A DNA stretch of 64,000 nucleotides. Source: Bugula neritina (Eukaryota; Bryozoa; Gymnolaemata; Cheilostomatida; Bugulidae). Location: assembly GCA_964035545.1 (NCBI GenBank), contig OZ037768.1:21140700-21204699 (forward strand). The letters run 5' to 3'. Positions 14,895 to 41,607 of the stretch are shown here, one piece after another (the first letter of the stretch is position 1; each line of letters opens with the position of its first letter). Both the position numbers and the translations under genes were made by a program. The notes below the pieces were generated by a model. It was not told the origin of the DNA and ran no database searches. It was given only the letters and a program-made list of their open reading frames with translations.

Positions 14895-14928
14895 ATGGCT
14901 GAGAGTGCAGTCAGCAGACCAGATGAAG
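14895..14928 (+). CDS. First coding exon of the LRR-Roc-COR-caspase gene
   Basis: It encodes [11 protein letters not shown] plus one base. Phase 1 matches the next exon (GGC at the junction). The donor GTTCCG is poor, so this start is the least certain part of the model; an alternative upstream exon is possible. It lies about 150 bp beyond the end of the segmental duplication. Confidence 0.55.

Positions 14929-41607: not shown

Follow-up and report, generated by a model that had tools for sequence, protein, structure and literature searches.

Does one stretch of Bugula neritina chromosome 4 encode a single protein in which leucine-rich repeats (LRRs) and a Roc-COR GTPase module are joined to a caspase, and does this protein stand alone or belong to a family? 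We analyzed a window of 64,000 nt (GCA_964035545.1, OZ037768.1, 21,140,700-21,204,699, forward strand), located on chromosome 4 (C4) of the assembly tzBugNeri2.1. The assembly searched comprised 215.85 Mb in 295 contigs. From the genomic sequence a gene of 16 exons was predicted at positions 14895-41607 (+) of the window, with its ATG at 14895 and its TGA at 41605-41607. The coding sequence of 4356 nt corresponds to 1452 codons including the stop, and the protein has 1451 residues. All exons were in phase and free of stops, with AG at 15 of 15 acceptors and GT at 15 of 15 donors. The exons are as follows:

14895-14928 (+): coding exon 1 with the start codon, 34 nt, in phase, weak GT donor (AAG|gttccg); the least certain exon, without independent support
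15294-15531 (+): coding exon 2, N-terminal region, in phase, AG/GT borders
16048-16188 (+): LRR exon 1, 141 nt, phase 2-2, about two LRRs (Pfam, exon comparison)
16952-17092 (+): LRR exon 2, 141 nt
17768-17908 (+): LRR exon 3, 141 nt
18789-18929 (+): LRR exon 4, 141 nt
19447-19587 (+): LRR exon 5, 141 nt
30689-30829 (+): LRR exon 6, 141 nt, preceded by an 11.1 kb intron with a Ty3/Gypsy-type element
31853-33987 (+): large exon with the last LRRs, Roc and COR (Pfam, predicted fold, 63 scored genome copies)
34286-34369 (+): linker exon 1, in phase; same junction in the database model P0041
34729-34919 (+): linker exon 2 with an acidic DDLSDLSED motif, followed by 11 protein letters (withheld); same junction in P0041
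35376-35546 (+): first exon of the caspase p20 part, Arg1203 at 35454-35456 (Pfam, PDB alignment)
39677-39899 (+): second p20 exon, His1261 at 39758-39760 and Cys1305 at 39890-39892 (Pfam, PDB alignment)
40231-40416 (+): linker between the subunits (IVTD; Asp1320 encoded at 40266-40268), followed by the beginning of p10 (Pfam, alignments)
40883-40992 (+): caspase p10 exon, Arg1375 at 40897-40899 (Pfam, PDB alignment)
41470-41607 (+): last exon with the end of p10, the C-terminus LYLFPGFN... and the stop TGA (alignment, frame)

The predicted protein consisted, in this order, of LRRs, a Roc GTPase, COR and a complete caspase with the catalytic His and Cys and both substrate-binding Arg. In Pfam the LRR families scored far over the cut-off, Roc reached 28.9 bits (cut-off 27) and Peptidase_C14 127.5 bits (cut-off 21.4, residues 1184-1414). 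COR-A and COR-B, with 15.9 and 13.1 bits, both stayed below the cut-off. NACHT and NB-ARC, the domains of STAND ATPases, were absent from the Pfam matches down to E 1, and scans of the window with Rfam at the gathering threshold and for tRNAs gave no matches. The nucleotide-binding motifs of Roc were a P-loop GNTMAGKT (residues 477-484), DMGG (531) and THKD (600).

The best PDB match of the caspase was CED-3 (E 1e-23), to which the His, the Cys and the two substrate Arg could be aligned; caspase-1 and caspase-4 structures scored as well. Judged from the CED-3 alignment, Arg1203 and Arg1375 are the arginines of the S1 pocket that goes with Asp specificity. The usual, though not strictly necessary, active-site motif of caspases is QAC[RQG]G. 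The window protein departs from QACxG and reads EVCSG.

The Roc-COR exon, 711 residues long, was modelled with AlphaFold2 on an alignment with 30 rows, namely the window gene, 27 of the other 32 exon-bearing B. neritina loci, P0001 and P0002. The model had a mean pLDDT of 76.1 and a pTM of 0.76 and is unreliable beyond approximately residue 614. In a Foldseek search of the PDB the top match was LRRK1 (2.1e-19), followed by the C. tepidum LRR-Roc-COR protein and LRRK2, and the isolated COR of C. tepidum Roco (3dpt) was found with a TMt of 0.60. The long ROCO matches had a query TM of about 0.4-0.5, an rmsd of 6-11 Å and an identity of 10-15%; such low TM and high rmsd values may be expectable for flexible multi-domain chains. 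Since the predicted fold matches LRRK1, LRRK2 and C. tepidum Roco with its COR, a COR domain was taken as present after Roc despite the Pfam scores.

These results bear out an initial annotation of the locus, which had proposed one phase-consistent LRR-Roc-COR-caspase gene of 1452 codons. The 16 exons join, the codon number includes the TGA, and the junctions 33987/34286, 34919/35376 and 35546/39677 lie where it had placed them. The His, Cys and substrate Arg that it regarded as retained were seen as His1261, Cys1305, Arg1203 and Arg1375. A domain search of the predicted protein, which it had suggested, placed LRR, Roc and C14 over the cut-off and COR under it, the latter backed by the fold; the exon order recurs elsewhere in the genome.

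LRR exons 5 and 6 are separated by the 11.1 kb intron, in which a Ty3/Gypsy-type pol frame stays open for 1341 residues (23425-27450, +), and similar Gypsy pol/integrase fragments are located just 3' of the gene (44466-45892, -), both recognized by eye. A retroelement artefact is ruled out, since the Ty3/Gypsy-type frame lies inside a single LRR intron and touches no coding exon. Likewise, the intact frame, the intact splice sites and purifying selection rule out a pseudogene for this copy, and bacterial contamination is excluded by its introns, its place on a chromosome and the presence of relatives in Watersipora. At the beginning of the window (1-4539) a 30-base unit is arranged in tandem in about 148 copies, with a GC skew of 0.433 over 1-4000.

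Searching the B. neritina genome with the Roc-COR exon, we scored 63 copies from 158 first-look candidates, a number that represents a lower bound of the family size. The copies, window gene included, shared 43-100% identity, and 60 of the 63 frames were stop-free, with an internal stop in the other three. Clusters were found at 33.8-35.1 Mb of C1 and at 2.6-6.3 Mb of C6; on C4, the two nearest copies, 87 and 85% identical, lie on either side of the window. At locus L017 (C1:33884563-33886503) the frame around the exon stays open for 2363 residues, versus 675-753 in the other listed copies.

A Pfam C14 search of the genome yielded 176 matches, 150 of which were listed and used for pairing. At least 50 of the 63 Roc-COR exons were followed, at a distance of up to 8 kb on their own strand, by a listed match. 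Near these exons none of the listed matches was on the opposite strand, either up- or downstream, and only one was upstream on the same strand. By tblastn a first caspase exon was added in five of the other 13 loci (L015, L022, L029, L049 and L051), giving at least 55 of 63 copies with a caspase downstream on the same strand; in L033 and L034 no caspase exon was found inside the 1.5 kb examined. Altogether 61 of the 150 listed C14 matches paired with the 63 scored exons and 89 did not, and therefore further caspase loci exist. Additional members outside the 63 include two with Roc at C7:5083608 (+) and C7:7663512 (-), each followed by C14 at 3-4 kb on its own strand. Unpaired C14 exon groups were seen at C2:30.5 Mb, C7:5.1 and 7.6-7.7 Mb, C8:4.8-5.0 Mb and C9:9.3 Mb; those not next to the Roc copies on C7 may be more family members or another caspase expansion.

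The order of exons was constant in all loci with more than one piece found: linker exons, p20a, p20b, p10a, p10b and p10c. Because this order recurs genome-wide, the LRR-Roc-COR-caspase layout is beyond chance. The p20a exon was present in 28 of 30 Roc-COR loci (26 in the flank, two in an adjoining piece). The LSDLS motif of linker exon 2 recurred in 20 of the 37 tblastn rows, and a second set of copies had another acidic linker (..DISECSDVEEEG..). In the three nearest copies the GT-AG borders of linker exon 2 and of the caspase exons were preserved. Furthermore, the B. neritina database model P0041 (EB796_016200) is 86% identical to residues 762-1233 of the window protein and spans three COR-linker-p20 junctions at the same places. 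Given this identity, P0041 is a close copy rather than the window gene itself. It derives from a different, more fragmented B. neritina assembly, which we take to be the older one.

Small contigs of the assembly (C58 with L001, C90, C99, C144 and others) contained small-GTPase frames with several TAA/TAG codons. The sole one inspected, L001, gave a Rab-like protein when read in the ciliate code, and the assembly may hold cobiont contigs with reassigned stop codons.

In Watersipora subatra five database models continue from Roc/COR to the caspase active site (P0001, P0094, P0095, P0096 and P0097), and all align with the window protein throughout. P0001 and P0096 (1448 residues) begin in LRRs over the cut-off, P0094 begins within the P-loop, P0095 is an isoform X1 and P0097 an isoform X2 that is cut in p10. 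P0096 likewise has a region ahead of the LRRs, which aligned weakly to that of window exon 2. With Roc scores of 26.2 (P0001), 16.7 (P0094), 25.9 (P0095), 24.1 (P0096) and 27.3 bits (P0097), four of the five remained under the cut-off of 27. P0002 stops in caspase exon one, and the W. subatra models P0042 and P0098 had no caspase. Several W. subatra relatives are named MFHAS1 homolog in the databases. The combination of Roc-COR and C14, for which the initial annotation had recommended a search of related genomes, is present in these five models by alignment. The annotation undersold its gene, which belongs to a large family that is common to another bryozoan. Among the matches listed, no protein with Roc and C14 came from another named phylum, the searches being length-limited and in part confined to candidates with high word sharing.

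His and Cys were present in all five W. subatra models extending that far, with the motif QACSG or QACLG. An Asp in the p20-p10 linker occupies a shared column in the five W. subatra models (PD or TD) and the window protein (IVTD). It was kept in the three nearest B. neritina copies and was not evident in the more distant copies L042, L048, L049, L050 and L056. The pre-caspase linker was acidic and SD-rich in both species.

The Roc tree comprised 33 rows, selected from 98 proteins plus three sequences of B. neritina. Of these rows 13 were treated as bryozoan, five of them, of unknown species, by assumption. They clustered together (100/100) on one long branch; the remaining rows, six from amphioxus and 14 others, a few of which were named as bacterial, fell outside the cluster. 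At a weak fork (86/44) the window gene sided with P0002, and P0001, P0096 and P0097 lay on the other side. As caspase-bearing members occur on both sides of this fork, the fusion is probably older than the split between Bugula and Watersipora. By sequence the caspase is of metazoan type. The separate Roc group and the CED-3-like caspase suggest, without proving it, that the fusion was assembled within animals rather than transferred from bacteria. Two Branchiostoma proteins, P0003 and P0043, combine LRR-Roc with a GT4-conflict glycosyltransferase domain, P0003 also with an OTU protease; from their domains they look like another animal ROCO with conflict-type domains.

Across the locus alignments reaching the respective residue, the catalytic His was found in 26 of 26 and the Cys in 22 of 23, the substrate Arg in 37 of 37 and 13 of 13, and the P-loop Lys, the DxxG Asp and the THKD Asp in 33 of 33 each. 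These counts include one gene in two loci (L038/L042), L044 with an ordinary-looking caspase (QACRG) and the short L041 and L043, in which no Roc-COR was seen. The Cys motif varied among several B. neritina copies (EVCSG, ETCSG, HACSG and QACSG). Locus L051 (C6:2632161-2642160) reads ILEASSG at the active site, a Ser replacing the catalytic Cys, and is a possible inactive decoy. Considering this Ser and the three stop-bearing frames, some copies may be dead or decoys.

Both halves of the gene are under purifying selection. Against the three nearest copies, NG86 omega was 0.285, 0.302 and 0.228 for Roc-COR (dS 0.226, 0.257 and 0.776) and 0.138, 0.179 and 0.251 for the caspase (dS 0.185, 0.142 and 0.472), respectively. 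The LRR exons are the fastest-changing part: for the six 141-nt exons of the window the 15 pooled pairs gave a pN/pS of 0.82, single pairs ranging from 0.43 to 3.31. The variable positions presumably include ones expected to face outward in the LRR strands. The introns after LRR exons 1-3 were 92.2-94.8% identical, and these units are therefore recent duplicates, although gene conversion could also be a source of this likeness. Among the three recent pairs, non-synonymous change was in excess of intron divergence for two (Fisher p 0.049 and 0.046) but not for the third (0.85), which is only suggestive of positive selection.

On balance, we favor the view that the window gene belongs to a family of cytosolic receptor-proteases in bryozoans, whose LRR sensing and Roc-COR switch would drive the fused caspase, likely towards cell death. 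The variable LRRs would bind a ligand or danger signal. Roc and COR would form a nucleotide-controlled dimer switch, and nucleotide exchange or ligand binding would alter the dimer. Dimerization or a conformational change would then bring the fused caspase domains together, and these would cut themselves, candidate sites being the Asp of the p20-p10 linker (IVTD) and the acidic pre-caspase linker. Finally, the caspases would cleave downstream targets, most likely resulting in the death of an infected or foreign-contacted cell. GTP control, proximity activation and the cleavage sites we infer from Roco and caspase biology, and an immune or allorecognition role is suggested by analogy too. The initial annotation had proposed that a nucleotide-switched module replaces the prodomain; this arrangement fits the sequence and the predicted fold, whereas the GTP control and caspase activity that it implies would follow from such analogy. 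The EVCSG in place of the usual motif, the unsteady linker Asp, the W. subatra Roc scores and the models lacking a caspase count against the receptor-protease reading, as do the copy with Ser for Cys, the frames with a stop, the eight of 63 Roc-COR exons outside the paired set and the 89 unpaired C14 matches.

The fused caspase might instead be a self-processing or signalling protease that acts on its own linker or on an inflammatory substrate with no direct cell death. We regard this as unlikely, if still worth weighing: the scores of caspase-1 and caspase-4 and the linker Asp common to Watersipora fit with it, and the best PDB match, the apoptotic CED-3, speaks against it but does not separate the two outcomes. 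Improbable, in our judgment, is a housekeeping ROCO for signalling in autophagy, in stress or to the cytoskeleton, whose caspase tail would regulate turnover and whose expansion would be neutral tandem duplication. The ordinary purifying selection on Roc-COR and caspase and the clusters on C1 and C6 would agree with it; however, the copy number and the LRR pN/pS of 0.82 versus 0.14-0.30 elsewhere are more like a receptor family. That an LRR-Roc-COR gene and a neighboring, separate caspase gene were wrongly merged is scarcely credible and taken as ruled out, since, despite the 4.1 kb intron within the caspase part and the caspase-less models P0042 and P0098, phase and linker exons bridge the halves, at least 55 of 63 copies are paired with no listed match on the opposite strand, and in both B. 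neritina and W. subatra there are database models that run across the boundary.

How does the receptor-protease compare with known systems? LRRK1, LRRK2, MFHAS1 and DAPK1 share the LRR-Roc-COR core, except that DAPK1 is without LRRs, and the predicted fold matches LRRK1 and LRRK2. To our knowledge none of the four carries a caspase. The sequence distance to animal ROCO proteins is large, many database ROCO matches covering just 8-13% of the query. With metazoan caspases (CED-3, caspases 1-9; C14A) the window protein has the whole catalytic domain, His, Cys and both Arg in common, whereas these have a CARD or DED prodomain where the bryozoan protein has LRR-Roc-COR, and it differs by its EVCSG motif. 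In NLRs and inflammasome or apoptosome receptors an LRR sensor and a nucleotide switch control a caspase. Their switch is a STAND ATPase; that of the bryozoan protein would be a Roc GTPase, with the caspase in the same chain and no adaptor. Its working may be NLR-like, yet by its domains it is not an NLR, as the STAND module is absent.

Brown-algal LRR-ROCO proteins, candidate immune receptors with exon shuffling, also have their LRRs on equal-sized phase-2 exons (PMC11378527). These are 72-nt exons with a single LRR and there is no caspase, a word absent from the text of that source (PMC11378527), whereas the bryozoan exons are of 141 nt with about two LRRs. TIR proteins with ROC and COR are described from Aplysia in PMC9334734, and amphioxus caspases with new prodomains in PMC3196919, from whose text LRR and GTPase are absent. 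Closest are bacterial conflict proteins: Kaur et al. 2021 (PMC8195603) describe, under the name LRR-AP-GTPase(Roc)-COR, proteins whose C-terminal domain can be of at least 24 kinds, caspase among them, in the order seen here, with several paralogues per genome and a proposed role against invaders. The bacterial proteins vary their effector, whereas the bryozoan family has a caspase, the sole effector type searched, in at least 55 of 63 copies; it further differs by its metazoan-type caspase (CED-3 best) and separate Roc clade. The statement of the initial annotation that no such architecture had been described thus has to be withdrawn, since bacterial LRR-Roc-COR proteins with a caspase are in print (PMC8195603) and the W. 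subatra models were in databases. No report of an animal LRR-Roc-COR-caspase was found in a literature search that was thin on subscription papers. What is new is the animal, expanded variant with a metazoan caspase, while the overall kind is already known from bacteria.

B. neritina hosts bacterial symbionts. Moreover, bryozoans are among the colonial animals with allo-incompatibility, as PMC8195603 mentions. More tentatively, at a little under even chances, the family could be an adaptor-free, diversified bryozoan repertoire of innate receptors, comprising dozens of genes with a GTPase-fired caspase and with LRR exons that change fast and were duplicated in tandem. It would be an independently assembled counterpart of bacterial LRR-Roc-COR proteins, possibly serving allorecognition between colonies in addition to defence or symbiont control. 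If true, sensing of non-self or pathogens would be linked to a caspase in one animal chain, and a GTPase would do the work that in NLR and inflammasome pathways falls to STAND ATPases and death-fold adaptors. How the nucleotide state of Roc-COR controls output is an open question for LRRK2, and the protein would offer a simple test bed for it, since a caspase provides a readily assayed read-out. For bryozoans, it would provide a concrete candidate receptor family.
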